Assembly (NCBI RefSeq): GCF_001661595.2
Contig: NZ_LYPF02000018.1
Location: 1 to 64,000, forward strand
Length of the DNA stretch: 64,000 bases
From: Crocinitomix algicola
GTDB taxonomy: Bacteria > Bacteroidota > Bacteroidia > Flavobacteriales_D > Crocinitomicaceae
Direction: 5' to 3'
Both the position numbers and the translations under genes were made by a program. The notes below the pieces were generated by a model. It was not told the origin of the DNA and did not search any database. It saw only the letters and a program-made list of their open reading frames with translations. This document shows positions 47,877 to 64,000 of this stretch, piece after piece; the stretch's first letter is position 1, and every line of letters starts with the position of its first letter.

Positions 47877-47903
47877 TTTGAATTATAAAACTCAACTATT
47901 ATA

Positions 47904-49118
47904 ATGAAGTCATTAGAAAAATTCATGCGCAAAATAGAGCCCACTCATGAGAGTAAATGGGCGAAATTTCACCCAGTTTGGGATGCGCTTTATACATTCG
48001 CCTTTACACCAGGCGAAACGACTAAAAAAGGAGCACATATCCGTGACGGAATCGATCTTAAAAGAACGATGTTCACCGTAATTGTTGCTCTAATTCCTTG
48101 TTTACTCTTCGGAATCTACAACACCGGTCATTGGCATTTTGTAGCAGAGGGAACAGCGGGAGAATTCATGGATAACTTCGGAGACAAACTCGTTTACGGT
48201 TTAATCCAAGTTTTACCAATTGTTATTGTTTCTTATGCTGTCGGTTTAGGAGTAGAATTTATATTCTGTATCAAAAATCAACATGCGATTCAAGAAGGAT
48301 TCTTAGTAACCGGAATGCTTATTCCTTTAATTGTACCTGCTGATATTCCTCTATGGATGGTTGCAGTAGCTACTATTTTTGCTGTTGTACTCGGTAAAGA
48401 AGTATTCGGAGGAACAGGAATGAACATCGTAAATATTGCATTAACTGCTCGTGCTTTCCTATTCTTTGGTTATCCAACAAAGATGTCTGGGGATAAAGTA
48501 TGGATGAGTGGCATTTCAGATGTCCCAAAAGAAACACTTGACGTAAATGGGGTTACTGGAGCAACTCAATTAGGCGAACTTGCTACCTTCACTGGTCCTC
48601 AAGAAGATTGGACCTATCAAGGAGGAATCAAAGCTTTTGAATCTGCTTGGTCTATTTGGGATTCATTTGTAGGAATTATACCTGGATCTATCGGAGAAAC
48701 TTCTGTTATTGCTATTTTAATTGGAGCGGCATTACTTTTATACACAGGTATTGCGAGTTGGAAAGTAATGACGTCTTTTGTTATTGGAGGACTCTTTGTT
48801 GGATTTTTAGCAAATGCATTTGCCGTTAACGAGTACATGATGCTTCAACCATTGAATCACCTTGTGATCGGTGGATTCGCATTCGGGGCCGTTTTTATGA
48901 TTACCGACCCCGTAACAGCAGCACAAACTAGCACAGGTAAATTCATTTATGGATTCTTAGGTGGCGCTTTATCTATTGTAATTCGTGTTTTCAACGGGGC
49001 ATACCCTGAAGGAGTTATGATGGCAATTCTATTCATGAATGTAATGGCGCCTATGATTGATCACTACGTGATTCAAGCGAATATTAAACGAAGATTAAAA
49101 AGATTAAAAACAGCATAA
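47904..49118 (+). CDS. nqrB: Na+-translocating NADH:quinone reductase subunit B
   Basis: This 404-residue integral subunit has nine to ten membrane helices. The motif GVTGATQLGELATFTGPQ holds Thr221, equivalent to the threonine carrying covalent FMN in NqrB. MITDPVTAAQTSTGKFIYGF is another family motif. It belongs to the RnfD/NqrB fold. It has the usual extended length and an N-terminal cytosolic part with KKGAHIRDGIDLKRTMFTVI. It precedes nqrC by 2 bases. Confidence 0.95.
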   Translation: MKSLEKFMRKIEPTHESKWAKFHPVWDALYTFAFTPGETTKKGAHIRDGIDLKRTMFTVIVALIPCLLFGIYNTGHWHFVAEGTAGEFMDNFGDKLVYGLIQVLPIVIVSYAVGLGVEFIFCIKNQHAIQEGFLVTGMLIPLIVPADIPLWMVAVATIFAVVLGKEVFGGTGMNIVNIALTARAFLFFGYPTKMSGDKVWMSGISDVPKETLDVNGVTGATQLGELATFTGPQEDWTYQGGIKAFESAWSIWDSFVGIIPGSIGETSVIAILIGAALLLYTGIASWKVMTSFVIGGLFVGFLANAFAVNEYMMLQPLNHLVIGGFAFGAVFMITDPVTAAQTSTGKFIYGFLGGALSIVIRVFNGAYPEGVMMAILFMNVMAPMIDHYVIQANIKRRLKRLKTA

Positions 49119-49120
49119 TC

Positions 49121-49855
49121 ATGGCAGTGAATAAAGATAAAAACAGTTATACCTTCATATTTGCCATAATCATGGTTGTAGTGGTAGGTGCTGGTCTAGC
49201 AGCAATTTCCACTGGTTTGAAGGATCGACAACTTAAGAATTTAGATGTCAAAAAGAAAATGGACATTCTAAATGCTCTCAAAATTAAAGAGATCAAAGGA
49301 AGTGATACTTTAGATGTTTCCCGTAAAAATGCAGAAGATCTTTATGCTCAATACATCATGACTGATGAGTGTCTAGTATTAAATGCTGACGGTGAAGAAA
49401 TCCCTGGTAAAGTTGCGTTTGATGTTGATATTAAACAACAATATAGAGACAAAACAAGACCTGTTGAAGAACGTGAATACCCACTCTATATAGCATCTAT
49501 TGATGGCTCAACTAAGTACGTAATTCCTGTAGTAGGTTCTGGATTATGGGGGCCAATTTGGGGTTATATCGCAGTAGATGAAGATCAGTCTTCAATCTAT
49601 GGTGCTGCTTTTGATCACAAAGGTGAAACACCTGGTCTTGGGGCTGAAATTAAACAAGCTTTCTTTTACGAGCAATACGAATCTGAAGTAATTTCTGTGG
49701 ATGGAAAATACAAGAAGATTAAAATTGTTAAAGATGGAACAGGTAGCGATTTACATAAAGTAGATGGTATCACTGGAGGAACAATTACCTCAAAAGGAGT
49801 TGAAGAAATGGTAGACCGTACTTTACAGGTTTACGTATCATATTTTAATAAATAA
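49121..49855 (+). CDS. nqrC: Na+-translocating NADH:quinone reductase subunit C
   Basis: This 244-residue subunit has one N-terminal membrane segment (residues about 10-28) and a periplasmic FMN-binding domain. The motif DGITGGTITSKGVEEM carries Thr221, in the position of the FMN-bearing threonine; the usual motif is S/T-G-A-T and here GGT replaces GAT, as known for some Bacteroidota. LWGPIWGYIAVDEDQSSIYG is family-typical. FMN is attached by the flavinyl-transferase ApbE, which is not encoded in this window. Confidence 0.94.
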   Translation: MAVNKDKNSYTFIFAIIMVVVVGAGLAAISTGLKDRQLKNLDVKKKMDILNALKIKEIKGSDTLDVSRKNAEDLYAQYIMTDECLVLNADGEEIPGKVAFDVDIKQQYRDKTRPVEEREYPLYIASIDGSTKYVIPVVGSGLWGPIWGYIAVDEDQSSIYGAAFDHKGETPGLGAEIKQAFFYEQYESEVISVDGKYKKIKIVKDGTGSDLHKVDGITGGTITSKGVEEMVDRTLQVYVSYFNK

Positions 49856-49859
49856 TTGA

Positions 49860-50549
49860 TTGATCATGAGTGAAAATCAAGATAAAATAAAAGCACCAAA
49901 AGAGCCGCTATTCTCGAAGAAGAATAAGCGCTTAGTAACTGAACCATTGGATGATAATAACCCAGTTACACTGCAAGTATTAGGTATTTGTTCGGCATTG
50001 GCTATTACCGTTTCTATCGAACAAGCATTGGTAATGACAGGATCTGTTTTATTCGTTCTCGGAGCGGGTAACGTAGTTGTTTCTTTACTTCGAAACTTAA
50101 TACCATCTCGAATTCGTATTATAGTGCAACTAGTTGTGGTTGCAGCATTAGTTATTATTGTAAACGAAGTTCTAAAAGCTTTCTTGCCGGATATGGCTGA
50201 AAAACTTTCTGTATTTGTTGGATTGATCATTACCAACTGTATCATTATGGGACGTTTTGAAGCATTCGCGATGGCAAATGGTCCTTGGCCTTCTTTCTTA
50301 GATGCCGTAGGAAATACACTTGGCTATGGATTAGTATTAGTTATAGTTTCTGTAATCCGAGAAGTATTTGGCTCTGGAAAATTCTTCGGGGTTGAACTAT
50401 TCGGAGATCGAATTGCAGGTACAGGACTTTACAAATACGGCTATATGGATAACAACTTTATCATCTTAGCTCCATTTGCACTCTTCGCCGTTGCCCTTGT
50501 AATTTGGGTACAGCGCGCTAGAAACAAATCTTTAATTGAAGAACATTAA
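49860..50549 (+). CDS. nqrD: Na+-translocating NADH:quinone reductase subunit D
   Basis: This 229-residue subunit has an N-terminal cytosolic stretch and six membrane helices. Family motifs are [40 protein letters not shown] and [20 protein letters not shown] with a Cys (ITNCIIMGR) that takes part in the iron centre formed with NqrE. The start at 49860 reads [10 protein letters not shown]; a second ATG two codons later could serve. It follows nqrC by 4 bases. Confidence 0.95.
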
Positions 50550-50560
50550 TAAATAAGGAC

Positions 50561-51178
50561 ATGGTAGATTATATTAATATAGCCTTAAAAGGTATTTTTA
50601 TTGAGAACATGATTTTTGCCTATTTCTTAGGTATGTGTTCTTATTTGGCAGTATCAAAAACAGTTAAAACAGCGGCAGGTTTAGGCGCAGCCGTAATTTT
50701 TGTACTTGTCGTAACTATTCCAGTAAACTGGTTACTCGAAAACTATATTCTTCAAGCTGGCGCTTTGTCATGGTTAGGTGAGGAATACGCAGGATTAGAT
50801 TTAAGTTTCTTATCCTTCATTATGTTCATTGCTGTCATCGCTTCAATTGTTCAGTTGGTTGAAATGTTGGTTGAAAAATTTGCGCCTGCACTTTACGGTG
50901 CATTAGGAATTTTCCTTCCACTCATCGCTGTAAACTGCTCAATTCTTGGAGGTGCCCTATTTATGCAAGAACGTCAATATTCAACAATTGGTGAAGCAAC
51001 AACATTTGCTGTTGGTTCCGGAATAGGATGGTTCTTAGCGGTTGTGGCTATCGCAGCAATTAGAGAAAAAATCAAATACTCAAATGTCCCTGCTCCTTTA
51101 AGAGGGCTAGGAATCACTTTCATCATCACTGGTTTGATGGGTATTGCATTTATGAGTTTTAGTGGAATTAGTTTATAA
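50561..51178 (+). CDS. nqrE: Na+-translocating NADH:quinone reductase subunit E
   Basis: This 205-residue subunit has six membrane helices and the family motifs [37 protein letters not shown] and [20 protein letters not shown], with the cysteines (GMCSYL and VNCSILGG) that, with NqrD, hold the membrane-embedded iron centre. It is homologous to NqrD and RnfA, facing the opposite way. It lies 11 bases after nqrD and 11 before nqrF. Confidence 0.95.
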
Positions 51179-51189
51179 TAGATAGAAGA

Positions 51190-52491
51190 ATGGTACAAGT
51201 TATAACAGTAACAGTCATTGTATTTACGATAATAACACTCCTTTTAGTGAGTCTATTATTATTTGTGAAAGCAAAAATTTCCCCGGCTGGTAAAATTAAA
51301 ATTACAATTAACGGGGAACACGAATTAGAAGTTGACGGAGGTGGAACGCTTTTAAGTACACTTGGTTCAAATGGTATTTTCTTACCTTCTGCCTGTGGTG
51401 GTGGAGGAACATGTGTTCAATGTGTTTGCCAAGTTAATTCTGGTGGTGGTGCAATACTACCAACTGAAGAACCGCACTTCTCAAGAAAAGAAATCGCAGA
51501 TAACTTTCGATTAGGTTGTCAAGTTAAGGTGAAAGAAGACATGGAAATTCATGTTGAAGAGGAAATCATGGGAATTAAAGAATGGGAAGCTAAAGTTGTT
51601 TCTAATTACAACGTTGCGACCTATATTAAAGAATTCATCGTGGAAATTCCTGAAGATATGGATTATAAAGCGGGTGGATATATCCAAATTAAAATACCAC
51701 CATGTGAGGTGAAATTTTCTGATATGGATATAACAGCTCATCCACAAGATCACCCAGGTGAGCCGAATAAATTTGAGAAGGATTGGGCGGAAGGTCCATT
51801 TGCTATGCGTCACTTAGTGATGAAAAATGATGAAGAAGTTGTACGTGCATACTCTATGGCTTCTTATCCTGCTGAAGGAAGAAGAATCATGCTCAACGTA
51901 CGTGTTGCTGCTCCACCTTTCGACCGTAAAACAGGTACTTGGATGAATGTGAATCCAGGTGTTGCTTCATCTTATATCTTTAACTTAAAGGTTGGTGACC
52001 CTGCAATTATTTCTGGTCCTTATGGTGAATTCTTTATCAACGAATCAGACGCAGAAATGTTATACGTTGGTGGTGGTGCAGGAATGGCTCCTATGCGATC
52101 ACACTTATACGAATTATTCAAAACACTTAAAACAGGTCGAAAAGTATCTTACTGGTATGGAGGTCGTTCTAGAGCAGAACTTTTCTATATCCACTACTTT
52201 AGAGATCTTGAAAAAGACTTTCCGAATTTTAAATTCTACATGGTATTGTCAGATGCCTTACCTGAAGATAATTGGAAAGAGATGAAAGACATCAACGACA
52301 CTGAGGGTGATGGTTTTGTTGGATTTGTTCATCAAGCAGTGATTGATCAATACCTGTCAAAACATGATGCTCCGGAAGATATAGAATTCTATTTCTGTGG
52401 CCCTCCTATGATGAACCAAGCGGTTATCAAAATGTGTGATGACTGGGGTGTACCACCTGAGAATGTAAGGTTTGATGATTTTGGTGGCTAA
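51190..52491 (+). CDS. nqrF: Na+-translocating NADH:quinone reductase subunit F
   Basis: This 433-residue NADH-oxidising subunit has one N-terminal membrane helix and a 2Fe-2S ferredoxin domain with Cys69, Cys75, Cys78 (PSACGGGGTCVQCVC) and a fourth Cys near residue 112 (RLGCQV). The FAD domain (RAYSMASYPAEGRRIMLNVR) and the NADH domain (YVGGGAGMAPMRSHLYELFK, YGGRSRAELFY, FYFCGPPMMNQAV) follow. It is the electron entry point of the complex. The operon ends here, followed by a strong hairpin terminator. Confidence 0.96.
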   Translation: MVQVITVTVIVFTIITLLLVSLLLFVKAKISPAGKIKITINGEHELEVDGGGTLLSTLGSNGIFLPSACGGGGTCVQCVCQVNSGGGAILPTEEPHFSRKEIADNFRLGCQVKVKEDMEIHVEEEIMGIKEWEAKVVSNYNVATYIKEFIVEIPEDMDYKAGGYIQIKIPPCEVKFSDMDITAHPQDHPGEPNKFEKDWAEGPFAMRHLVMKNDEEVVRAYSMASYPAEGRRIMLNVRVAAPPFDRKTGTWMNVNPGVASSYIFNLKVGDPAIISGPYGEFFINESDAEMLYVGGGAGMAPMRSHLYELFKTLKTGRKVSYWYGGRSRAELFYIHYFRDLEKDFPNFKFYMVLSDALPEDNWKEMKDINDTEGDGFVGFVHQAVIDQYLSKHDAPEDIEFYFCGPPMMNQAVIKMCDDWGVPPENVRFDDFGG

Positions 52492-52515: not shown

Positions 52516-52551
52516 AATCCCTTCAGTTTTGCAACTGAAGGGATTTTTTTT
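52516..52551 (+). terminator. Rho-independent terminator after the nqr operon
   Basis: AATCCCTTCAGTT (52516-52528) and AACTGAAGGGATT (52533-52545) form a perfect 13-bp stem with loop TTGC, followed by a T-run to 52551. It is the clearest terminator in the window and separates nqr from the H-NOX signalling block. Confidence 0.9.
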
Positions 52552-52637: not shown

Positions 52638-53975
52638 ATGAGAATATTCATAGTAGAAGATGACACTTGGTACGCGCAATTCCTAAAGCACCATATCTCA
52701 CTTAACCCAGACAACGAGGTGGAAACGTTTGAGAGTGGAAAAGAATACAAAAAAGCGCTGAAAAGAAAACCAGATGTTGTTTGCTTGGATTTTACTTTAC
52801 CCGATTCAAGCGGTGAAGAACTTCTAAAATTAACGAAAGCTCAATCACCAGAGACAGAAGTAATCATTGTTTCCGGTCAGGAAGATGTAAAAACCGCTAT
52901 TGGTTTACTTAAGCTAGGAGCCTATGATTATCTAACAAAAGATGAAGAAACTACTGAAAGAATTTGGAACCTACTCATTAAAATAAACGAAAAATCTAGC
53001 CTTGTCGAAGAAGTAAAAACCCTTCGTCAAGAAGTAAAAAAACAATACAAAGTTGATCACTCATTTATTGGAGAATCTCCTGCCATTCAAAATGTTAAAC
53101 ATTTAATCAATAAAGCAACAGAAACAACATTAACAATCAGTATAACTGGTGAAACTGGTACTGGTAAAGAAGTTGTGGCTAAATCAATTCACTATAATTC
53201 TAATTATAAAGGAAAATTCGTCGCCGTTAATGTCGCTGCAATACCAAAAGACCTCATAGAAAGTGAACTTTTTGGACATGAAAAAGGCGCCTTTACTGGT
53301 GCAAATAACAAACGTATTGGTAAGTTTGAAGAAGCAAATGAAGGAACACTCTTTTTGGATGAAATCGGTGAAATGGATTTAAATATGCAATCCAAATTGC
53401 TTCGTGTCCTCCAAGAAAGGGAAGTCGTGCGGGTCGGAGGTAACAAACCTATCAAAATCAAAACAAGAATCATAACGGCTACACATAAAAACCTCGCTGA
53501 CGAAGTTCACAAAGGTAATTTTAGGCAAGATTTGTACTTCCGTTTGTTAGGAATGCCCATTGATCTACCACCGCTAAGATCAAGAGGGAAAGATATCATT
53601 TTACTTGCCGATCACTTCTTAAAAGACTTTTGCGCTAAAAACAATCTTAATTGTAAAAAACTCAGTGATGCTGCTGCTGAAAAATTAATGTCACACGAAT
53701 TTTCAGGGAATGTCAGAGAACTTAAAGCACTAATGGATCTTGCAGCAGTGATGAGTGCAAGTGAAACCATTGAACCTCAAGATATCAATCTCAATGTTGC
53801 TGGAAAATCACTCGATGCTATAACAGACAAAGAAATGAGTCTGAAAGAATATAACGAGAAAATAATTAATCACTATATCAATAAATACGATAATAATATA
53901 GTACTCGCAGCTAAGGCTTTAAAAATTGGTAAGTCAACTATTTACCGAATGTTAAATAAAAACAAAGCGCTATGA
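52638..53975 (+). CDS. NtrC-type sigma-54-dependent response regulator
   Basis: This 445-residue protein has a receiver domain (residues 1-120; phosphoacceptor Asp51 in VVCLDFTLPDSSG, with Ser79 and Lys101), an AAA+ domain (Walker A GETGTGKE at 171-178, the sigma-54 contact GAFTGA at 217-222, LFLDEIGEMD) and a C-terminal Fis-type HTH (VLAAKALKIGKSTIYRMLNK). It activates sigma-54 promoters when phosphorylated. Its stop overlaps the H-NOX start by 4 bp (ATGA). It should be the output of the kinase two genes downstream; targets probably include the nearby polysaccharide genes, which is inference. Confidence 0.94.
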   Translation: MRIFIVEDDTWYAQFLKHHISLNPDNEVETFESGKEYKKALKRKPDVVCLDFTLPDSSGEELLKLTKAQSPETEVIIVSGQEDVKTAIGLLKLGAYDYLTKDEETTERIWNLLIKINEKSSLVEEVKTLRQEVKKQYKVDHSFIGESPAIQNVKHLINKATETTLTISITGETGTGKEVVAKSIHYNSNYKGKFVAVNVAAIPKDLIESELFGHEKGAFTGANNKRIGKFEEANEGTLFLDEIGEMDLNMQSKLLRVLQEREVVRVGGNKPIKIKTRIITATHKNLADEVHKGNFRQDLYFRLLGMPIDLPPLRSRGKDIILLADHFLKDFCAKNNLNCKKLSDAAAEKLMSHEFSGNVRELKALMDLAAVMSASETIEPQDINLNVAGKSLDAITDKEMSLKEYNEKIINHYINKYDNNIVLAAKALKIGKSTIYRMLNKNKAL

Positions 53976-54511
53976 AAGGAATAGTTTTTTCGGAGTTTTT
54001 AGAATTGGTTGAAGATAAGTTTGGACTTGAAACAGTCGAACAAATTATAAAGGAATGTGATTTAGCAACTGGTGGTTCATACACTTCAATCGGAACATAT
54101 GATCATAAAGAAATGTTTGAAATGGTTGGCGTCTTATCTGACATTCAAAACATCCCTGTTCAGCAATTATTGGAAATCTATGGCGAACATTTTTTTACAA
54201 TTCTCGCTAAAGGCTATCCACAATTCCTAGAAAAAAACGACTTATTTTCATTTTTAAATTCAATTGACAACTACATCCATCCAGAAGTATTAAAACTTTA
54301 TCCTGATGCAGAACTCCCAAAATTCGACGCAGCGATGAACAATGATAAAACTGAAATGATGCTCGTATACCGTTCAAGTAGAAAAATGTCGAGTTTTGCT
54401 ATTGGTTTATTAAAGGGGGCTGCTACCTTTTACAACCAAGAAACCAATATCTCAAAAATCAAAGAAGAAAACAACGGCGAAATTGTTACAATTAAAATTA
54501 CCTTAGTCTAG
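53972..54511 (+). CDS. H-NOX haem nitric-oxide sensor protein
   Basis: This 179-residue protein is an H-NOX domain: the proximal haem ligand is His103 (NYIHPEVLKLYPDAELPKF), and the propionate-binding Y-x-S-x-R motif is Tyr133-Ser135-Arg137 (LVYRSSRKMSSF). The length is that of stand-alone H-NOX proteins of facultative anaerobes and marine bacteria, which bind NO very tightly and inhibit a partner histidine kinase. It lies between a response regulator and a hybrid kinase, with a 4-bp overlap upstream and a stop that shares a base with the kinase GTG start. No distal Tyr typical of oxygen-binding forms was placed by eye. Confidence 0.93.
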   Translation: MKGIVFSEFLELVEDKFGLETVEQIIKECDLATGGSYTSIGTYDHKEMFEMVGVLSDIQNIPVQQLLEIYGEHFFTILAKGYPQFLEKNDLFSFLNSIDNYIHPEVLKLYPDAELPKFDAAMNNDKTEMMLVYRSSRKMSSFAIGLLKGAATFYNQETNISKIKEENNGEIVTIKITLV

Positions 54512-56928
54512 TGATTGATCCATCCATTTATAAAAAAGCCTTACAGCGCGAACGAGAAGCCAGAAAAGAAGCTGAGAAAATCTTAGAAGATAAAGCAGTT
54601 GAACTATACAACGCCAATCAGCGATTACAAAAACTGAACACAGAATTAGAAAAGGAACTCGAAGAAAGAATCGAGTCATTTAAACAATCTGAAATTCGTT
54701 TTTCTAAAGTAATATCTGAAGCAACCGACGTCATTTACAATTCGACACTAACAGGTGACTTTACCTTTGTCAATAAAAAAGCAACCATTTTAACTGAATA
54801 TACGGAGGAAGAGTTATTAACTATGAACTATTCTGAGCTTGTAACCTCCCCACCACTTGAAGAATTAAGAGAATTTTACCAAAATCAAGTAAAAAATGAT
54901 GTTCTAACAAGTTACGTCGAATTTCAGATTAAATCAAAAACAGGTAAAAAATATTGGCTTGGACAAAATGTTCAGCTGGTAAAAACGAAGGGGGAAACTA
55001 CTGGTTTCTTAGCCATCGCAAGAGACATTACAGAAAGGGTTAGAGCAAACGAAGAGTTGAGAAAAAGTGAAGAGAAATACCGTAAACTTCTGGAAAACAT
55101 GAATCTTGGAATGATAGAAGTTGGTAAAGAAGGTAGATTAACAAAAGTTTACGAGAGCTTTTGTGAACTTACGGGGTATTCGAGAGAAGAGCTATTGGAT
55201 GAAAATTCTGATATAAATCTACTAGCGCCTGAATCGTATAATACTGTAGAAGAACATATGAGGCTTAGAAAAGAAGGTAAAGCTACAGTTTATGAAGTAA
55301 AAATGATTCGTAAAGATGGCAAGGAAATTTGGGTCTTGATTTCTGGAGCTCCTTACTATGATGATGATGGAAATATTAATGGCAGCATAGCTGTACATCT
55401 TGATATCACAGCGAGAAAAGTGGCTGAGAATAATTTAAAGGATGCTAAAGAAATGGCCGAAGCTTCGAGTAGAGCGAAAGAGATATTCTTGGCCAACATG
55501 AGTCATGAAATTCGTACCCCGCTAAATGCCGTTATAGGTTTATCACAACTTTTAGCAAAATCAAAATTGGATAAATCGCAAATTAATTATGTCTCTACGA
55601 TAAAATCGTCTGCCACTACCCTACTCGGTTTAGTTAATAATATTCTTGATTTTTCAAAGATTGAGTCAGGTGAAATGCATTTGGAAAAAACACCATTTAA
55701 TATAAACGAACTTGGGGTAAATGTGGTTAAATTATTTAACTACCGAGCAAATGAAAAAAACATTCGTATTGAATTTAACACAAATTTACCCACAAATGCT
55801 AGCTTTAATTCGGATCAACTTCGCTTAAATCAAGTTTTAGTGAATTTGGTCAACAATGCAATTAAATTCACCAATCGAGGTACGGTAAAATTATGTATTA
55901 ACAAGCAAGACGATGGTGAGATTTTGTTTGAAGTAATTGATACAGGAATTGGAATATCAGAAGATAAAATTGAAACAATTTTTAGTGAATTTAAACAAGA
56001 AAACGAAAAAATTGTAAAACAATTTGGAGGAACAGGACTTGGGTTAAGTATTTCTAAAAGTTTAGTAGAACTGTTTGGTGGTGAACTAAAAGTTAAAAGT
56101 GTAAAAGGAGAAGGATCGACCTTCTATTTTAAAATCCATCTGAAGGCCTGTAATGATGAAAAAATTGAGGTTGAAGAACTAATTGATGAAAGTTTTGATT
56201 GGACAAAAGTTGATATTCTATTGGTGGAAGACAACGTAGTCAATCAATTTGTTGCCTCAAAATTTATCACAGATTGGGGAGCTAAATTAACAGTTTGTGA
56301 TAATGGCGAACGAGCTTTGAAAAAATTAAACGAACGAACAGATTTCTCACTTATTTTAATGGATATACAAATGCCTGTAATGAATGGTGTAGAATGTACC
56401 GAAGAAATTCGCAAAAACCTCAAATTAGAACTACCTATTATCGCTCTAACTGCGAATGCCGTTAAAGGAGATCGTGAAAAATTCATTGCCATAGGAATGG
56501 ATGATTATGTTTCAAAACCTTTTGATGAGCAGCAGCTCAAAAAAACAATAATTAAACAAATAAAAATTAACTCAATAAAAGGAACTCCCATGCCAAAAGA
56601 CTTACAAGACAGACAAATCTTCACTACAGAAAAGTTGGAATCAATGAGTCATAACAATCCTGACTTTATAAAAAAAATGCTTCAAATTTTCATGGAAGAA
56701 TCAGAAAAGCAAATTCCTTTAATGAAACTTTCAGAGGGTGAAGACAATGTATCAAAACTAGCGCATAAAATAAAACCTTCAATTGACACAGTTGCTGATA
56801 GTATTATGGCACAAGATGTTCGTAAAATTGAAAATAAAGAATTCATTGATGAACCTCAGATGATTGAAGAATTTGCAAAAGACTGGAAAGAACTGGTCCG
56901 ACAAATTAAAATTTATCTCTCAAATTGA
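54511..56928 (+). CDS. Hybrid histidine kinase with PAS, receiver and HPt domains (H-NOX partner)
   Basis: This 805-residue protein starts at GTG 54511. It has an N-terminal coiled coil (residues about 8-60), two PAS domains (about 60-180 and 185-305), a HisKA domain with His332 (ANMSHEIRTPLNAVIG), a HATPase (NLVNNAIKFTN, DTGIGIS, GGTGLGLSIS), a receiver with Asp618 (LILMDIQMPVMNG) and a C-terminal HPt-like domain with His752 (KLAHKIKPS). It has no membrane segment and so is cytosolic. The start shares a base with the H-NOX stop, so H-NOX is its likely input, and the sigma-54 regulator upstream is its likely output through a phosphorelay. Confidence 0.93.
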   Translation: MIDPSIYKKALQREREARKEAEKILEDKAVELYNANQRLQKLNTELEKELEERIESFKQSEIRFSKVISEATDVIYNSTLTGDFTFVNKKATILTEYTEEELLTMNYSELVTSPPLEELREFYQNQVKNDVLTSYVEFQIKSKTGKKYWLGQNVQLVKTKGETTGFLAIARDITERVRANEELRKSEEKYRKLLENMNLGMIEVGKEGRLTKVYESFCELTGYSREELLDENSDINLLAPESYNTVEEHMRLRKEGKATVYEVKMIRKDGKEIWVLISGAPYYDDDGNINGSIAVHLDITARKVAENNLKDAKEMAEASSRAKEIFLANMSHEIRTPLNAVIGLSQLLAKSKLDKSQINYVSTIKSSATTLLGLVNNILDFSKIESGEMHLEKTPFNINELGVNVVKLFNYRANEKNIRIEFNTNLPTNASFNSDQLRLNQVLVNLVNNAIKFTNRGTVKLCINKQDDGEILFEVIDTGIGISEDKIETIFSEFKQENEKIVKQFGGTGLGLSISKSLVELFGGELKVKSVKGEGSTFYFKIHLKACNDEKIEVEELIDESFDWTKVDILLVEDNVVNQFVASKFITDWGAKLTVCDNGERALKKLNERTDFSLILMDIQMPVMNGVECTEEIRKNLKLELPIIALTANAVKGDREKFIAIGMDDYVSKPFDEQQLKKTIIKQIKINSIKGTPMPKDLQDRQIFTTEKLESMSHNNPDFIKKMLQIFMEESEKQIPLMKLSEGEDNVSKLAHKIKPSIDTVADSIMAQDVRKIENKEFIDEPQMIEEFAKDWKELVRQIKIYLSN

Positions 56929-57044
56929 GGATTTATTCCCAAAATGGGAAAATATTGAATCTCTAAAAAACTCCAAACCCCCTATTAATAAAGAGATTTT
57001 AATGACTGGCATGATTTAGGTCTTACTTAGACCAAACGAAGATC
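56929..57044 (+). promoter_or_regulatory. Gap with a possible sigma-54 promoter at 57007-57021
   Basis: TGGCATGATTTAGGT (57007-57021) matches the -24 half of the sigma-54 consensus (TGGCA) and the GATTT spacer often seen in Bacteroidota. It has GT in place of the usual GC at -12. The next ATG is at 57045. An imperfect hairpin, TTCCCA-AAA-TGGGAA (56936-56950), lies just after the kinase stop without a T-tract. The call is tentative. Confidence 0.35.
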
Positions 57045-57428
57045 ATGGAAAACTTAACAATTTTAAAACTCAATACTTTCGACCAGTATTTCTGGTCTGC
57101 AAAGTTAGGATTTGACAAAACATTTACGCTACTCGATTATTCTGAAGAAAATCTCAATCAAACTGCAGCAGTAGCCCAATCTATCATTGTAGACTTTTAT
57201 TTTAGTCAAACTTCATTGGATGAAGAACAAGAAATAACGCTCAGCATACTCAACGCGCTTAGAAATTCCGGTAGAAAAACAACGCTTTTCTTATTAAGCC
57301 CTTCGTATGCAGGAGAGACAATTCGAAAGTTTACTGTCGATCGAACTGAAATCATTAAACATAATTTTTCAATGCAAATGATTGAAGAAATTACTCAAAA
57401 ATTAAACAACACTAATAAAGCATCATAA
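57045..57428 (+). CDS. Degenerate receiver-like domain protein
   Basis: I do not recognise a named family for this 127-residue protein. It follows the receiver topology: alternating strands and helices, with Asp50 in SIIVDFYFSQ in the place of the phosphoacceptor, a fourth strand KTTLFLLSPSYAGE, and a fifth strand EIIKHNFSMQ with a Lys. The N-terminal acidic pair is missing, so phosphorylation is doubtful. It could be a pseudo-receiver that binds the neighbouring regulators. It lies 16 bases before a genuine receiver gene. Confidence 0.65.
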   Translation: MENLTILKLNTFDQYFWSAKLGFDKTFTLLDYSEENLNQTAAVAQSIIVDFYFSQTSLDEEQEITLSILNALRNSGRKTTLFLLSPSYAGETIRKFTVDRTEIIKHNFSMQMIEEITQKLNNTNKAS

Positions 57429-57441
57429 AAAACACACCACC

Positions 57442-57876
57442 ATGAAAAATCACAAAGTATACATTATTGAAGACAACTTCTTTTACGGAAGTATCATTAA
57501 ATCAAGAATAGAAAATTTAGGTTATTTAGACGTAGAATTATTTACCACAGGTGAAGCGTTTATGGAGAACATACACGATCAACCAAGTGTTGTATTTATT
57601 GATCACGTGCTACCAGACTATGAAGGATTGACAATCTTAAAGGAAATTAAAAGCACTTATCCTCAAATTCAGTGCATAATGTTATCCGGACAAGAAGAAA
57701 TAAAAGTGGCCATTGATTCATTAAAATTTGGCGCAACAGATTACCTGGTAAAAAATGCCGATGATGGCGCACTTCGCATAAATGAGGTTATTAGGGACTG
57801 CATAAAAATTAATGAACTACAGAGCCAACCCAAAAAGAAAAGAAAGAGATTAGGTATTTTACCAAGCTTCCTATGA
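57442..57876 (+). CDS. Single-domain response regulator with basic tail
   Basis: This 144-residue protein is a complete receiver: acidic pair Glu10-Asp11 (VYIIEDNFFYG), phosphoacceptor Asp54 (VVFIDHVLPDYEG), Ser in MLSGQEE and Lys in YLVKNADD. The final 20 residues are basic (PKKKRKRLGILPSFL), with no output domain. It resembles the receiver of the upstream sigma-54 regulator (SGQED/E...GAxDYL). Its stop overlaps the Wza-like gene by 4 bp, which couples it translationally to the polysaccharide operon. It may compete for phosphate in the relay or bind a partner. Confidence 0.9.
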   Translation: MKNHKVYIIEDNFFYGSIIKSRIENLGYLDVELFTTGEAFMENIHDQPSVVFIDHVLPDYEGLTILKEIKSTYPQIQCIMLSGQEEIKVAIDSLKFGATDYLVKNADDGALRINEVIRDCIKINELQSQPKKKRKRLGILPSFL

Positions 57877-58595
57877 AAAAAATACTTTATATTATCATAC
57901 TCGTTCAATTAAGCAGCTGTGCCAATTACAACATGTTTAAAGGGAATAAACGAAGTAATGATGAAGATCTATTTGAATTGCTTAATGACAGCTATGCTCC
58001 AACAATCGCTCCTGACGATAAGCTATCTTTTAGTGTTTGGAATCATGATGATATGAGTGTCGGTTCTGCATACAGCATTTACAACACCAATGAAGCCTTT
58101 GGAAAATGGTTAATTGTTTCGAAAGACTCGCTCGTAAAAGTACCTCATCTAGGAGCAATCAACATTGTAGGTCTCACACTTTCAGAGGCCGAGCAGTTCA
58201 TTGAAAAGCAACTAAGTAAAACAATTAAAAATCCCATTGTAGAAATTAAGATTTTAAATGCAGAAGTGAGTATATTAGGAGAAGTTAAAAAACCAGGCAA
58301 ATACCTGATTGAAAAAGACCTAAACACCTTAGTTGAATTTATTGCTGAAGCACAAGGCCTGACCTCCTTTGCTCAAAAGAAAAAAATTCAAGTCATTCGT
58401 GACAATATTAGTTATAGAATTGATTTGACAAGAATACGGGATATTGATGCCAATAATATTTACCTTAAATCAGGAGACATTCTGTATGTTCCTGCAGTAA
58501 GAAGTAAAAAACTGCATGAAAGAGCCCCTACTTTAATTCCGTTCGCAACAATGCTTACATCCATTGGTGTGTTAGTGTCAGTACTTGGAGAATAA
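57873..58595 (+). CDS. Wza-like polysaccharide export lipoprotein
   Basis: This 240-residue protein has a lipoprotein signal ending LSSC (Cys16), a poly-export (Wza) domain from TIAPDDKLSFSVWNHDDMSV and SLBB-type ligand domains (AEVSILGEVKKPGKYLIEKD, GDILYVPAV). A hydrophobic C-terminal helix (LIPFATMLTSIGVLVSVLGE) probably crosses the outer membrane. It forms the export channel for surface polysaccharide, and works with the Wzc-like gene 7 bases downstream. Its start overlaps the single-domain receiver. Confidence 0.9.
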   Translation: MKKILYIIILVQLSSCANYNMFKGNKRSNDEDLFELLNDSYAPTIAPDDKLSFSVWNHDDMSVGSAYSIYNTNEAFGKWLIVSKDSLVKVPHLGAINIVGLTLSEAEQFIEKQLSKTIKNPIVEIKILNAEVSILGEVKKPGKYLIEKDLNTLVEFIAEAQGLTSFAQKKKIQVIRDNISYRIDLTRIRDIDANNIYLKSGDILYVPAVRSKKLHERAPTLIPFATMLTSIGVLVSVLGE

Positions 58596-58602
58596 TTAAA
58601 GT

Positions 58603-60849
58603 ATGTTAGAAATACATAAAATAAAAAACATTCTCATAACCCTAATTAAAGGTTCGCCGATAATTATTGGATGTTTGGCTATTGGCTTATTCATCGCCAA
58701 CCGGGTAATTCGTTATTCCACGCCAAAGTTTCAAAGCATGGCGAAAATAAAACTGGATGACTTTAAATATGGAATGTCCGGAAATAACCTATACGAAGAC
58801 TTTGATGTATTTACCTCCGAAAACAAAATAGAAACAGAAGCGGAAATTTTAAAGTCTCACTTACTGGTAGGACAAACATTAGATAAGTTAAATATTCAAT
58901 ATAAAATATGGCGTAAAGGTAGGCTCAAGACCACCTTACTTTACGAAGACTTTCCTTTTTCGGTCGAACTAAGCCCTGAATTTAACCTGCACAATGAGCC
59001 TTTTGAAATTTTAATCAGCGGAGATAAAATCAGCCTAAAATATCCCGATAGTGAAACAACATTAACCAGTGGAAAATTTAACTTACCAATTCAACTGGAT
59101 GAAGAAAATTATATCATTCTACGAAAAAATCTTAAATTACTGAAGAAAAGAAAATTAGATCTTAACGGAGTTTACCTATTTGAGGTCCCGTCTCGTTCTA
59201 AAGCAATTGCTGAAGCTCAAAAAGACCTGGATGTTAAAGCTATAGACAAAGAAATTGCTGTTATTCGAGTAGTTTATAAACATGAAAACCCCAAATTAGC
59301 AGCAGACTTTACTAACGCTTTGTGTGATGCCTACATCAATGACTACATTAGCTCGAAATCCAAAGCAGCTGAAAAAACCCTCACTTTCATTGAAGAAAGA
59401 ATGCAGTCCATTTCGAATAACTTATCAAAAGCGGAAAATAATTTAGAAGATTTCAAAATTCAAAATAGCGTTGTTAATACTTTACAAGAAACGGAAACAG
59501 GCTTAAGGGAGATTTCAAAACTTCGCCTACAACTGATCAACCTCGAAACCGAACAAGAAGCTACCAAAGATTTAGAAGCATATATCGCAACCGGAGATTA
59601 TTATGAAGGCACCGCAATTAATTTTGGGTTTGGTGACTTGGTTTTAACCGAGCTCGTTAAAAAATTAAAACTCTATACCGACCAAAAGAAAGATTTGTTG
59701 ATTAAGTACACCGAACAAGATGAGCAGGTAATCAATGTGAATGCAAAAATTGATGATATTGAAAACTACATCAAAGAAGCTGTTCGCAGAAATCTAATCA
59801 ACCTTGAAACCAAACAAAAAGAAATTAGTACAGCTTTAGCAGAATTGGAACAACAATTTGTAAACATCCCAACACGAGAAAAAGAAATGCGCGTTTTAGA
59901 ACGTGAATTCATGAATAATGAGATGATCTACAATTTCCTTTTTCAAAAAAGATTAGAAGCTCAAATAGCATCACAGGCATTGATGTCCTTTCACCGTATC
60001 ATTCAACCTGCTACCATCAGTAAAAAACCTGTTTCTCCCAACAAGACCTTAATCATATTTGTAACTGGGTTTTTGAGCATACTCATCGGAATTTTGTTTG
60101 TATTCACCAGAAAATCGGTCAGTGGAAAAATAATGACAAAAGCTGATGTTGAAAAACTATCTTCAATTCCGGTAATTGGAACAGTTAAAAGGAAAAGTCA
60201 AACTGAATTCCCTCAAATTGCCGCAAATTTAGTTGCAAAAACGAAAGAAAATCAACGCACCGTTCTCATCACATCTGCTGTAAAAAAGGAAGGCAAAACT
60301 TACCTCACTACTGCGTTAGCTGACAGCTTTAAAAAAATGGGATACACAGTAGCGGTATTAGACTTCAATGTACATCATTCCAATAAAAGATCAGATTTTT
60401 TTATTGAGGAGCTATTGCAAGAAAACAATCTTGAAGGAAAAGACAGTATTACAATAGGCTTTAAACCGAATACAGAAAATGCATCTTTTGTTTTGGCGCA
60501 TAAAAACTTTAAATCAGTGATTGAAGCAATTCAAAATAAATTTGATATCGTTTTAATTGATACACCTGGTTCTATTATTACTCCGGACGCCGAGGTACTC
60601 ATGCAATACGCTAACCTAGGATTATATATCGTTCGTTCAAATGTTTCAAAAGCGCAGTACACAAAAAGTGTAGACCTTTTACAAGAAGAAAACCCTAATT
60701 GTGAACTATATATTCTTTTAAACGGAGTTGATCGTTCAACTAATTTCTCAGGAACGTTTAATGGTTCTCGATTAAATTATAACAAAAGACCCAAAGGAAT
60801 TTTCAAATTGTTCAAATACTATTACAAAACATACATCAGTACCAAATAA
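58603..60849 (+). CDS. Wzc-like polysaccharide co-polymerase / tyrosine-autokinase-type protein
   Basis: This 748-residue protein has two membrane segments (residues about 15-35 and 483-503) flanking a large periplasmic coiled-coil region with two Wzz-type portions, then a cytosolic BY-kinase domain. Walker A is SAVKKEGKTYLTTALA (residues 558-573), Walker A' VAVLDFNVHHSNKR and Walker B FDIVLIDTPGS. The C-terminal tail has a tyrosine cluster (LFKYYYKTYISTK). Walker A is unusual (KEGKT with K-K instead of PGEGKS/T), so kinase activity is likely but not certain. It controls polymer length with Wza-like and Wzx/Wzy proteins. Confidence 0.88.
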   Translation: MLEIHKIKNILITLIKGSPIIIGCLAIGLFIANRVIRYSTPKFQSMAKIKLDDFKYGMSGNNLYEDFDVFTSENKIETEAEILKSHLLVGQTLDKLNIQYKIWRKGRLKTTLLYEDFPFSVELSPEFNLHNEPFEILISGDKISLKYPDSETTLTSGKFNLPIQLDEENYIILRKNLKLLKKRKLDLNGVYLFEVPSRSKAIAEAQKDLDVKAIDKEIAVIRVVYKHENPKLAADFTNALCDAYINDYISSKSKAAEKTLTFIEERMQSISNNLSKAENNLEDFKIQNSVVNTLQETETGLREISKLRLQLINLETEQEATKDLEAYIATGDYYEGTAINFGFGDLVLTELVKKLKLYTDQKKDLLIKYTEQDEQVINVNAKIDDIENYIKEAVRRNLINLETKQKEISTALAELEQQFVNIPTREKEMRVLEREFMNNEMIYNFLFQKRLEAQIASQALMSFHRIIQPATISKKPVSPNKTLIIFVTGFLSILIGILFVFTRKSVSGKIMTKADVEKLSSIPVIGTVKRKSQTEFPQIAANLVAKTKENQRTVLITSAVKKEGKTYLTTALADSFKKMGYTVAVLDFNVHHSNKRSDFFIEELLQENNLEGKDSITIGFKPNTENASFVLAHKNFKSVIEAIQNKFDIVLIDTPGSIITPDAEVLMQYANLGLYIVRSNVSKAQYTKSVDLLQEENPNCELYILLNGVDRSTNFSGTFNGSRLNYNKRPKGIFKLFKYYYKTYISTK

Positions 60850-60854
60850 TAATA

Positions 60855-62090
60855 ATGAGAGCCCAAATAAAAACATATTTCTATAAATCCTTGTCTTTTG
60901 CTGACCAGGGAATAGTGTCGGGTTCTAATTTTATTATCGCCATAATGATTTCTCATTTCGCTGGTGTTAAAACTTATGGTGAATTTTCGCTGTACTGGTT
61001 GTATTTTTTTCTCGTTCAAGCTATTCTTACATCATTCATAGGATTGCCTTTTCTGGTGCTTGGTAATAAAAAAAAAGATAATGAGCGCTATTTTAAGACG
61101 AACTTAGTCCTTTTAAATCGGCTAACGGTACTTGTGTTTATACTTGGAGTGATTGGTTTAGTTGCTTTACGCTCGATGAATTTCTTTCCGATTAACATTG
61201 ACCTTATTTTTAGCTTGCCTCTAGCAATCAGTTTATTTGTAATGCATGAACAGCATCGCAGGTATTTTTTGGCAAAGCACCAAAATAACCCACTATTAAT
61301 AATTGATATAATCGCTTATGGAGGCATTTGTTTAACGCTTCTTGTTCTAGGTGTAATTGGACAATTAGATCTTTCCACAATATTCATTGCGTATGGCTTC
61401 ATTGGACTTTTCGCTAATATCGCATTTCATATTCTCATTAAAAGTAATTTTGAATTAACCTCCACGACTGGTGTACCATTTAAAGAAAATTGGATTTTTT
61501 CGCGCCATTTAATCTTCACAAATATTATACAATGGTCTTCTACTAATTTTCTGCTGGTCAGTCTCTCGACCTTAGCCGGAACTAAAGTGGTAGGTACAGT
61601 TAAACTCATTCAAAATTTAATGGGAGTTCTTCATATTTTCTTCGCTACATTAGAGAATATTATTCCTCCAAAAGCCTCATTTCTTCTTCATCAGCATTCA
61701 AAGCAACATTTTCAACATTATTTTAAATCCATTTCTTTTAAAATGGGGGCCGTTATATTATCACTTTTAGGTCTTTTGTGGTTGTTCGATGAAGAAATTT
61801 TAACTTTTTTATATGGCCTGGAGTTAAAGTCTTCTACGGCTATTTTACAAATGTTTACACTCCTCTATCTCTTTATTTTTGTTGGCACGTTATTGCAGAT
61901 TTATCTCAAAACTTTAGAAATCAACGGAGGAATTTTAATTGCTTATTTATTGAGTCTACTCTTTTCTCTTACTTGCTCTAACTACTTAATTTCACAATTC
62001 TCAGTCATGGGCTATGTTTATGGGTTAATGATCCTACAAGTCATTGCTATCTCAACTTACCTCATCACACTAAAGTATAAAAAGACATGA
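60855..62090 (+). CDS. Wzx-like polysaccharide flippase
   Basis: This 411-residue protein has about 12 hydrophobic segments spread along its length, with the polysaccharide-flippase start SLSFADQGIVSGSNFIIAIM and MISHFAGVKTYGEFSLYWLY. It belongs to the MOP superfamily and is expected to flip undecaprenyl-linked repeat units across the inner membrane. It lies 5 bases after the Wzc-like gene and its stop overlaps the GT4 start (ATGA). No specific repeat-unit sugar can be inferred. Confidence 0.86.
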   Translation: MRAQIKTYFYKSLSFADQGIVSGSNFIIAIMISHFAGVKTYGEFSLYWLYFFLVQAILTSFIGLPFLVLGNKKKDNERYFKTNLVLLNRLTVLVFILGVIGLVALRSMNFFPINIDLIFSLPLAISLFVMHEQHRRYFLAKHQNNPLLIIDIIAYGGICLTLLVLGVIGQLDLSTIFIAYGFIGLFANIAFHILIKSNFELTSTTGVPFKENWIFSRHLIFTNIIQWSSTNFLLVSLSTLAGTKVVGTVKLIQNLMGVLHIFFATLENIIPPKASFLLHQHSKQHFQHYFKSISFKMGAVILSLLGLLWLFDEEILTFLYGLELKSSTAILQMFTLLYLFIFVGTLLQIYLKTLEINGGILIAYLLSLLFSLTCSNYLISQFSVMGYVYGLMILQVIAISTYLITLKYKKT

Positions 62091-63202
62091 CAAAAAAAAT
62101 TATTCATATAGCTCTTGGAAAAGCAAATCCAAATCGTATGAATGGTGTTAACAAGGTCATTCATAGTTTAATTTCAGCGCAAGTTGAAATGGGAGTTGAT
62201 GCAGAACTTTGGGGAATAACATTTAATACAACACATAATTATCCGACTAGAAACTTTAAAACGTATACTTTTTTAGACTATCGATTTAAATTTAAATTAG
62301 ATTATTCTTTAAAAGAAGCCATTAAAAGTCTTAAAAATAAAACCAATCATTGCTTCCATCTGCATGGTGCATTTACTCCTCAACTTTATAGTGTAGCGCG
62401 TTTATTAAAAAAGTATCGAATTCCTTACATTCATACTCCTCACGGAGGTTACAACCTTAAAGCTCTTGAAAAATCCAATCTTCGTAAAAAATTATACATC
62501 GTTTTTTTTGAACGTTTTTTGGTCAATAATGCACACGGAATTCAACTAATAGGTCAATCAGAAGTGGAAGGTTTAAACCGATATTTTAAACCAAAAAAAT
62601 ATGCTTTCATTCCAAATGGACAAGAGAAATTATTAGACAAAATTCCACCAAAAACAAAAGGTGAGCCTTTAAACCTTGGCTATCTAGGACGAATTGATAT
62701 TCATACGAAAGGATTAGACATTTTGTTTGAAGCATTAGCAATTGTAAAAGATACCGTCGAAATACGACTAAGTATTATCGGTGAAGGTGGAGAATTAATT
62801 GATTTAAAGACAAAAGCTGATGAACTAGGACTGTCAGAGTTTATAGATTTTAAAGGCGCTAAATTTGGAGAAGAAAAATATAAGTGTCTTGAGCAACTTG
62901 ATGTTTTTTGCTTAGTCTCTAGGAATGAAGGGTTACCTGGAGTCGTGTTGGAAGCTGCTGCCGTTGGAGTACCTTCGATTATATCGATAGGTACAAATAT
63001 GCGCCCTTATGTTGAGCCAAACAATGCAGGCTGGATTTTAACGAATTACAATGCTAAGGCTTTGGCTGAACACATAATAGACATCAACCAGGAAAAACAA
63101 AATCATACACTTTTAGAAAAATCTGAAAATGCGCTCTGTATGATAGACAAAGTCTTTTCATGGCGTAAAATTGCCGAAGAATTAGGAGATTTATATGCTT
63201 AA
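62087..63202 (+). CDS. Family 4 glycosyltransferase (GT-B)
   Basis: This 371-residue GT-B enzyme has the start ALGKANPNRMNGVNKVIHSL with the glycine-bearing acceptor loop, the donor-domain motif LGYLGRIDIHTKGLDILFEA, and the terminal E-x7-E region as SRNEGLPGVVLEAAAVGVPS. It lacks a signal peptide and is cytosolic. It overlaps the flippase by 4 bp and the following Wzy-like gene by 8 bp, so it should add a sugar to the repeat unit of this operon. Confidence 0.9.
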   Translation: MTKKIIHIALGKANPNRMNGVNKVIHSLISAQVEMGVDAELWGITFNTTHNYPTRNFKTYTFLDYRFKFKLDYSLKEAIKSLKNKTNHCFHLHGAFTPQLYSVARLLKKYRIPYIHTPHGGYNLKALEKSNLRKKLYIVFFERFLVNNAHGIQLIGQSEVEGLNRYFKPKKYAFIPNGQEKLLDKIPPKTKGEPLNLGYLGRIDIHTKGLDILFEALAIVKDTVEIRLSIIGEGGELIDLKTKADELGLSEFIDFKGAKFGEEKYKCLEQLDVFCLVSRNEGLPGVVLEAAAVGVPSIISIGTNMRPYVEPNNAGWILTNYNAKALAEHIIDINQEKQNHTLLEKSENALCMIDKVFSWRKIAEELGDLYA

Positions 63203-64000
63203 AAAGGAGCCATATTTTTTGCGTAATATTGAGTGGATACTCACCTTAATTTTGTTCATTAAAATTGCTGGTTATTTTTCGATTACAGACATTAAAATTA
63301 TAACCCAAATATTTAAAGTGATCAGTCGTGTGGGGATGACAGGAGTTATATTATTACTGTTAATGAAACTAAAAGCACTTGGCTGCATTAACATCTTACA
63401 AATAAGAAATAGTATGAGCGTTCTACTTTATCTCTTGTATTTAGGATTAGGTTTCGCGTCATTTACTTGGTCTACTGACCCAAAATACTCAGCTCTTCAA
63501 TGGTTTATGACTTTCGAAAGTTTTGTTTTTGTTTATATCTATTTTAAAGTAGTCTATACAATTAACCATTATTTTGACCATCATTTTATCGATTTGGTCA
63601 AAGTATTTACAAAAGCAACTTTTCCGATTTTAGTTATTTTTATCGTTGGATCTTTTGCCTTACCCGAATTCTTTTATCGGGAAATGAGAGGTGGTGAAGA
63701 AATTCGTTTGGGTGGATGGATAATGAACCCTAATGAATTAGGAATGCTTGCCAGTTTAAATGGTGCATTAGCTTATGTTTTATTAGAAAAAAAAACAGCC
63801 AAGACTCAACTTTACCCCATCTTATCAATTATTGCCGCTTTAGTGATTTTAGTCCTTACTTCTAGTCGTTCTTCGCTCATTGGATTTCTCTTAATAATTG
63901 GAATATTAGTTTTACAATCCGAGAATAAAAAATTGAAAATTTCCTTAATAGTTCTCACTGTATTAGCCGCGCCATTCGCCATTAAAACAATCATTTTTAA
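63195..64000 (+). CDS. Wzy/O-antigen ligase-like membrane protein (partial, runs off window)
   Basis: The frame opens at ATG 63195 (MLKKEPYFLRNIEWILTLIL), overlaps the preceding stop by 8 bp, and stays open to the end of the window (268 complete codons). Several membrane helices are visible, with the ligase/polymerase hallmark GGWIMNPNELGMLASLNGAL and then LVILVLTSSRSSLIGFLLII. These are the O-antigen ligase domain signatures. The rest of the gene lies outside. It probably polymerises the exopolysaccharide repeat units in the periplasm, with Wzx- and Wzc-like partners. Confidence 0.85.
   Translation, partial: MLKKEPYFLRNIEWILTLILFIKIAGYFSITDIKIITQIFKVISRVGMTGVILLLLMKLKALGCINILQIRNSMSVLLYLLYLGLGFASFTWSTDPKYSALQWFMTFESFVFVYIYFKVVYTINHYFDHHFIDLVKVFTKATFPILVIFIVGSFALPEFFYREMRGGEEIRLGGWIMNPNELGMLASLNGALAYVLLEKKTAKTQLYPILSIIAALVILVLTSSRSSLIGFLLIIGILVLQSENKKLKISLIVLTVLAAPFAIKTIIF

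Follow-up and report, generated by a model that had tools for sequence, protein, structure and literature searches.

Can nitric oxide (NO) control the polysaccharide matrix of a bacterium without a second messenger? Cyclic di-GMP (c-di-GMP) is often invoked to explain how NO controls biofilms, and a genome that lacks any GGDEF or EAL match while coupling a haem NO-binding (H-NOX) protein to polysaccharide genes would be a clean test of a c-di-GMP-independent route. The question is raised by a gene cluster of Crocinitomix algicola (Bacteroidota; RefSeq assembly GCF_001661595.2; 3.7 Mb, 99.94% complete), in the 64,000-nucleotide stretch that we analysed (positions 1 to 64,000 of contig NZ_LYPF02000018.1, here C10; hereafter the window). 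Genes for a sigma-54 response regulator (hereafter RR54), an H-NOX protein and a hybrid histidine kinase stand there directly before a polysaccharide export operon. Our reading, which we hold with a probability of roughly 70% on the strength of sequence comparison, is that they form a self-contained NO-gated phosphorelay that switches the polysaccharide locus. If this is true, NO-to-matrix control is possible without a second messenger.

The gene row and its conservation

All genes described here are read from the forward strand. The row opens with RR54 (52638-53975), an NtrC-type regulator recognized from its open reading frame (ORF) and Pfam, with a REC domain (Response_reg, 66.6 bits), an AAA+ domain with the GAFTGA motif (Sigma54_activat, 230.5 bits) and a Fis-type helix-turn-helix (HTH). 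Its gene overlaps by 4 bp that of H-NOX (53972-54511), predicted to be a stand-alone haem NO-binding protein, which in turn overlaps by 1 bp the hybrid kinase gene (54511-56928), whose start codon is GTG. After a gap of 116 bp come a receiver-like protein of 127 residues (57045-57428), a single-domain receiver whose phospho-acceptor residues are intact by eye (57442-57876; Response_reg, 71.5 bits), and a Wza-like outer-membrane polysaccharide export protein (57873-58595; Poly_export, 53.8 bits, and SLBB_2), the last two genes overlapping by 4 bp, as confirmed at the base level. The order claimed by the initial annotation, from RR54 to Wza with this overlap, is upheld by the ORFs and Pfam. The operon continues with a Wzc-like chain-length/co-polymerase protein (58603-60849) and a GT4-type glycosyltransferase (62087-63202), both recognized by ORF and Pfam, and between them a Wzx-like membrane protein (60855-62090), which has no Pfam match and is named by its position and conserved order.

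The H-NOX protein had been annotated as carrying His103 and a YxSxR motif, and this holds: it matches HNOB (PF07700) at 157.6 bits (cut-off 25.5), His103 and Y133xS135xR137 are invariant across 12 aligned H-NOX proteins, and its best solved relatives include 6bdd (E 3e-39) and 6bde. It is the sole HNOB match of the genome, and a probable NO sensor. The kinase gene directly adjoins the H-NOX gene, an adjacency kept in relatives, and its annotated PAS-PAS-kinase-receiver-HPt layout is borne out by Pfam matches to PAS (two stretches), HisKA, HATPase_c and Response_reg. The HPt domain scores below the Pfam cut-off in the window (17.0 against 24.6 bits) and above it in the kinase of relative L034 (37.7 bits), and the two kinases have the motif AHKIKPS in common. 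The window kinase also bears the N-terminal helix signature of H-NOX-coupled kinases, which we found in ORFs adjoining H-NOX at 82 of 92 loci and in 2 of 54 other kinase homologs at the same loci. Since the pattern was written after inspecting the sequences, replacing a stricter first version that matched 16 of the 92 loci, the figure of 82 is fitted after the fact. Seven of the ten misses (L037 and L043-L048) belong to a divergent H-NOX type, at L083 and L120 the next ORF is unlike a kinase, and at L122 the helix is similar by eye although the pattern fails. In these signature counts and in those of gene order, the short loci L001-L031 were excluded, and L054, L056 and L057 were dropped as repeats of L038, L033 and L032; the 80-locus counts given below retain these three.

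The 127-residue protein had been called a degenerate receiver, which is likely but not proven. An alignment judged by eye shows the acidic pair in none of ten sequences (Asp at position 50 is present in nine, and Lys is mostly not kept), and the structure model is a confident alpha/beta one (pLDDT 90.4). No Pfam family passes the cut-off, and the fold search returned weak matches including receivers (best E 2.7e-3; TM about 0.42-0.58 to the listed receivers), none of which reached E 0.001. Last in the third operon described below, a 159-residue protein (C10 72089-72568; 9089-9568 of L052) is pseudo-receiver-like with a C-terminal membrane helix, both by eye, and no Pfam family passes the cut-off for it either.

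The initial annotation had called for a survey of gene order in related genomes, and we fetched the loci of 20 relatives whose H-NOX proteins are 39-64% identical to that of the window. The complete order RR54, H-NOX, kinase, (pseudo-receiver), receiver, wza, wzc, wzx and glycosyltransferase was found in seven of them (L032, L034, L035, L036, L039, L041 and L049; L039 and L041 are without the pseudo-receiver and have one extra gene before the glycosyltransferase), and also in one further named contig, L055. It occurs in several genera of the family, and its recurrence in 7 of 20 relatives argues that the arrangement is not due to chance. Another seven loci (L033, L038, L040, L044, L045, L046 and L050) have RR54, H-NOX and the kinase, and no wza ortholog within the stretch retrieved, which for L033 stops at a contig end. 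Neither wza nor a directly upstream RR54 was seen in L037, L042 (from a contig of 3,952 bases), L043, L047, L048 and L051; for L048 and L051 the order survey gave no H-NOX ORF at E 1e-5.

Across the family, 83 of 240 genomes have an HNOB match (81 of them over the cut-off). Nine family genomes, the window's own included, have a Wza match with 39% identity or more, and all nine have H-NOX, against 83 of 240 overall; adjacency is seen in eight of the nine, and for the remaining one, G045, contig ends adjoin the two halves of the cluster. In a wider scan, among the matches listed, a wza homolog lies near H-NOX in 2 of 80 named loci (L055 and L057, the latter being the locus of Crocinitomix catalasitica ATCC 23190, with the cluster as in the window) and an RR54 homolog lies at most 2.1 kb upstream in 8 of 80, so that the arrangement is lineage-specific rather than general to H-NOX. 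These figures could also be taken to mean that H-NOX and its kinase are co-inherited passengers which control something else, wza being found in the flanks of only those two loci (some flanks end at contig ends). We consider this improbable, since the order with its overlapping genes is conserved across several genera, since putative cis-sites join the activator to the operon, and since sister genomes retain the module although the sensor differs. In two such genomes without an HNOB match, G002 and G004 (L174 and L175), RR54, a kinase of about 1,210 residues, the receiver, wza, wzc, wzx and the glycosyltransferase stand in a row; the L174 kinase has GAF and PAS domains (Pfam), and the H-NOX-type helix signature, sought in both kinases, was found in neither. 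As these two keep the module with another kinase, H-NOX looks like a plugged-in input, and the module seems to be older than its H-NOX input in the family.

In three further loci (L172, L176 and L177, from G032, G033 and G031) the kinase, receiver and wza occur with no RR54 or H-NOX alongside, a large reverse ORF separating kinase from receiver in L177. HNOBA is the domain that partners H-NOX in guanylate cyclase; the L176 kinase, the one tested, begins with an HNOBA segment (27.7 bits; cut-off 23.4), and all three genomes have an HNOB match elsewhere. Loci of other Flavobacteriales (L058-L062 and L064) encode H-NOX proteins at 57-63% identity near several kinase-like ORFs in a different neighbourhood, and a scan of viral contigs for H-NOX gave no match.

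Palindromes and promoter elements ahead of the operons

Comparison of the kinase-receiver gaps across relatives revealed a palindrome, TTCCCA-N3-TGGGAA, followed in the same layout by TGGCAY. In the window the palindrome reads TTCCCAAAATGGGAA (56936-56950), and we propose it as an enhancer, or upstream activating sequence (UAS), of RR54. A weaker copy found by palindrome scoring, CTCTCAAATTGAGGA (56917-56931), lies 19 bp upstream, partly within the 3' end of the kinase gene, agrees at 10 of 12 specified positions and is a putative partner UAS. TGGCAT follows 56 bp downstream of the main palindrome, and comparison with relatives leads us to propose TGGCATGATTTAGGTC (57007-57022) as a sigma-54 promoter, with a good -24 part and a degenerate -12 part. 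A short inverted repeat, GGTCTTACTTAGACC (57019-57033), sits at the expected -12/start region. Without mismatch, TTCCCANNNTGGGAA occurs at two places in the genome, C10 56936 and 64475, both in the cluster; with at most one mismatch it occurs at 14 places, against 5 for the reversed pattern. On C10, three of these palindromes (56936, 64475 and 69661) are followed by TGGCAY at 56, 75 and 76 bp, respectively. The composite pattern TTCYCRNNNYGRGAA-N50..80-TGGMAY has three matches in the genome, all in the polysaccharide cluster and on the operon strand, and its reversed version has none; the second site is at the gene of a 910-residue protein, and the third precedes a DUF1972-type glycosyltransferase gene.

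In the relatives, TGGMAY follows the palindrome at a distance of 54-56 or 73-76 bp, and a partner palindrome lies close to the alternative position. When TGG[CA]A[CT] was counted up to 140 bp after palindromes with at most one mismatch to TTCYCANNNTGRGAA in 20 cluster loci and 12 control loci, 17 of the 32 occurrences in cluster loci were at offsets of 53-57 or 72-77 bp, against 0 of 6 in control loci. Under independence, the binomial probability that 17 of 32 would fall in 11 of 141 offsets is 3e-11, a value that overstates the case because the spacing bands were set after viewing the data and the sequences are related. Around the 17 sites, scoring for a further palindrome gave the highest means at -19 in the 54-56 class (8.3 of 12) and at +19/20 in the 73-76 class (6.9 and 6.6), the overall mean being 3.7; thus most promoters have one strong and one weak palindrome about 55 and 74 bp before TGG. 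Tandem enhancer sites of NtrC-type activators show such a paired layout. The palindromes are therefore probably tandem enhancers of a sigma-54 activator, most likely tying RR54 to the operons.

Because the main palindrome lies close behind the kinase stop codon, it might instead be a transcription terminator or RNA hairpin, with TGGCAY there by coincidence. We rejected this identity, which we regard as most improbable: no T-run follows the palindrome in the window, the palindrome recurs at two downstream operons, its spacing to TGGMAY is bimodal, and a partner palindrome lies about 19 bp off. Moreover, L041 and L181 have, by eye, a separate CCCC/GGGG hairpin with a T-run between palindrome and promoter.

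Several observations weigh against reading these elements as RR54 sites. The kinase signature, the sequence pattern and the spacing bands were all drawn post hoc, and the relatives share ancestry, so the counts are not independent tests. The fourth palindrome of the contig, at C10 78281, has one mismatch and sits inside an ORF with no promoter element. The composite pattern matches 58 of 240 family genomes (its reversed version 6 of 240, by our own count), some of them without H-NOX and many outside such clusters. By our reading, nine of the 58 have a match inside a fetched RR54-H-NOX-kinase cluster (G000, G045, G046, G066, G101, G109, G123, G134 and G143), and in G104 the match lies where the gap after the kinase would be expected (L003); the others have matches elsewhere, and the cluster sites of G039 and G065 carry one mismatch, so that the strict pattern misses them. 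Fourteen further genomes were searched as well; among the matches listed, the genome's own cluster contig holds 2 of 6 palindromes in G039 and 4 of 10 in G045, those of the H-NOX-free genus members G040, G043 and G044 are mostly on separate contigs, and the number per genome does not always exceed the reversed control (10 against 14 in G045). In genus g16, the palindrome with TGGMAY precedes genes with secreted-looking products, as judged by eye, in 5 of 12 regions (L199, L200, L201, L207 and L208), and the regulon of this type of enhancer may be broader there. As to the promoters, the -12 part is degenerate, with G at the canonical position in 9 of 17 and C in 7 of 17, and GGTC in the window. 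A canonical sigma-54 scan of the window gave no clear excess (87 matches, where base-shuffled sequence gave 67 on average), the -12 half being degenerate, and the element emerged only through comparison with relatives; likewise, palindromes with two mismatches in the window alone (3 against 3.45 expected) were not significant. The promoter at C10 64565 lies 43 bp inside the called ORF of the 910-residue protein (C10 64522; 1522 of L052), and would require a downstream start codon. In that ORF, an in-frame Met at residue 28 is the likely true start. Finally, the genome has five more strong matches to sigma-54 activators.

Candidate binder, output and predicted relay

RR54 has a distinctive candidate recognition segment: the window protein has GKS[TS][IVL]YR, as do 18 of 20 orthologs (L174 and L175 read GKSKIYN), and this segment is absent from four G000 paralogs with an aligned HTH, the nearest being GQTTVYR; the HTH of a fifth paralog is unaligned. 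There is one rpoN match in the genome. Beyond the glycosyltransferase, the cluster continues with a Wzy/O-antigen-ligase-like gene that crosses the window end (63195-64000; C10 63195-64496), the 910-residue protein with an APH-like domain, three glycosyltransferases and a Glycos_transf_4 protein (WecA/MraY-type). On its other side, the genes at 46515-52491 resemble what we take to be the nqrA-F operon of a sodium-pumping NADH:quinone reductase, closed by a hairpin with a T-run at about 52520-52550.

The initial annotation had noted no c-di-GMP enzyme in the window, and this holds for the whole genome, where we found no match to GGDEF (control positive in 8 of 14 genomes) and none to EAL (control positive in 6 of 14). 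Therefore, c-di-GMP is an unlikely output. As an alternative output, a sigma-54 activator and a direct coupling of the receiver to export had been suggested. The first part stands, in that the activator belongs to a conserved unit with the export operon and has probable cis-sites; for the second, the evidence is the 4-bp overlap of receiver and wza. From the same overlap it could be argued that the main output is post-translational, the receiver (with the pseudo-receiver) acting on export or chain-length proteins in the manner of SypE, which PMC10804989 describes as post-transcriptional, and RR54 regulating mostly elsewhere. A receiver intact by eye does precede wza in L172, L176, L177 and L178 without RR54 or H-NOX alongside. 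We find this account rather unlikely, as the three composite enhancer-promoter sites of the genome are all in the cluster, which argues that transcription is an output. Taken together, the comparisons support NO-type sensor, phosphorelay, sigma-54 activator and export operon as one conserved unit, and the cis-sites probably link the activator both with the export operon and with two more operons in the cluster.

On the basis of the genes, their conservation and the site geometry, we infer the following relay. H-NOX would bind NO and determine how active the neighbouring hybrid kinase is, most likely switching it off, as in the H-NOX kinases that have been studied. Judging from the domains, phosphate would pass from the kinase His to the receiver Asp, then to HPt, and from there to RR54 and the small receiver. 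Phosphorylated RR54 would bind the tandem palindromes, which are spaced by about 19 bp, and together with sigma-54 would fire the TGGCAY promoters of three operons, whose limits are likewise predicted: the receivers-wza-wzc-wzx-glycosyltransferase operon from the promoter at 57007, and a second and a third with glycosyltransferases from promoters at C10 64565 and 69752. The receiver made from the first promoter would likely serve as a phosphate sink or feedback arm, or act on export. As a net effect, NO would lower polysaccharide output without c-di-GMP. With the same relay and cis-sites, the sign could be reversed, NO-bound H-NOX raising RR54 phosphorylation (kinase on or phosphatase off) so that NO induces a protective polysaccharide. 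The sequence does not fix the sign, and the two PAS stretches of the kinase could set its basal state; on the other hand, NO acting through HnoX inhibits HahK and biofilm in Vibrio fischeri (PMC12369376), and we judge the reversed polarity unlikely.

Comparison with known systems

In the Shewanella HnoX-HnoK-HnoB/HnoC/HnoD system, H-NOX lies beside a kinase and NO is an input to biofilm, as proposed here, but the output there includes c-di-GMP turnover, whereas our genome has no GGDEF or EAL match. Kordia is a genus of Bacteroidota. The solved structure 6BDD is a related H-NOX protein, that of Kordia algicida, and the available text of PMC7356049 describes no pathway for Kordia. That -24/-12 promoters work in Bacteroidota is shown by the sigma-54 regulon of Flavobacterium psychrophilum (motif SM4), whose targets, unlike the polysaccharide genes here, are mainly genes for protein quality control, envelope stress and gliding (PMC9723704, in part). 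The PEP-CTERM system PrsK-PrsR-RpoN is alike in having a sigma-54 response regulator and a kinase among polysaccharide genes, and an enhancer motif with a -24/-12 promoter recognized through comparison; PrsK is described as a transmembrane kinase and the targets as PEP-CTERM genes (sections of PMC1569441 and PMC9850573). We rejected the assignment of the cluster to this system, since RR54 scores 354.9 against an equivalog cut-off of 502.6 for PrsR (TIGR02915). Among the titles and opening lines of abstracts in the open-licence literature, we found no paper pointing to an H-NOX pathway or such a route in Bacteroidota.

The closest parallel is in the squid symbiont V. fischeri, and it does not support the wording of the initial statement that H-NOX kinases of Vibrio act via c-di-GMP enzymes: there HahK, itself inhibited by HnoX, signals by way of SypF and LuxU to SypG, a sigma-54 activator of four syp promoters (PMC12369376 and PMC10804989). 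Both systems have H-NOX beside a hybrid kinase, an HPt phosphorelay and a sigma-54 response regulator, and in both a REC-AAA+-HTH activator is encoded alongside polysaccharide genes, as seen here from ORFs and Pfam. Several sigma-54 promoters with enhancer sites lie inside the syp locus, and here three putative composite sites with tandem palindromes would correspond to them, yet with degenerate -12 halves. The systems differ in that the signal from the hnoX-hahK operon goes to LuxU and to SypF as a separate kinase, whereas the window kinase has its own HPt, and in that the window set is one compact cluster in a member of the Bacteroidota without GGDEF or EAL match. The distinct NO-to-polysaccharide route proposed for Bacteroidota thus parallels the known HnoX-HahK-SypF-SypG-syp circuit and is no new logic. 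What sets the present locus apart is its compactness, host phylum, built-in HPt and lack of c-di-GMP enzymes.

More broadly, we would give an even chance to the view that polysaccharide clusters of this family carry a portable control cassette of sigma-54 activator, hybrid kinase, receiver and tandem-enhancer promoters with an exchangeable input (H-NOX with its kinase, a GAF/PAS kinase or an HNOBA-type kinase), in which NO, where H-NOX is the input, controls a polysaccharide regulon without c-di-GMP enzymes, and that Bacteroidota and Vibrio have, in parallel, either evolved or retained NO-to-matrix control with an almost identical enhancer sequence. Through the predicted enhancer sites, the proposed c-di-GMP-independent route becomes testable and the regulon can be traced in the family. 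The likeness of RR54 to SypG lies in the circuit layout and in the enhancer site: the SypG site, TTCTCANNNTGMDWN / TTCTCANNNTG as quoted in PMC10162802, is in its form TTCTCANNNTGMDWN close to TTCTCANNNTGAGAA of L039, L041, L044 and L181 and to TTCYCANNNTGRGAA here, which raises the question of whether the two reflect shared descent or convergence.

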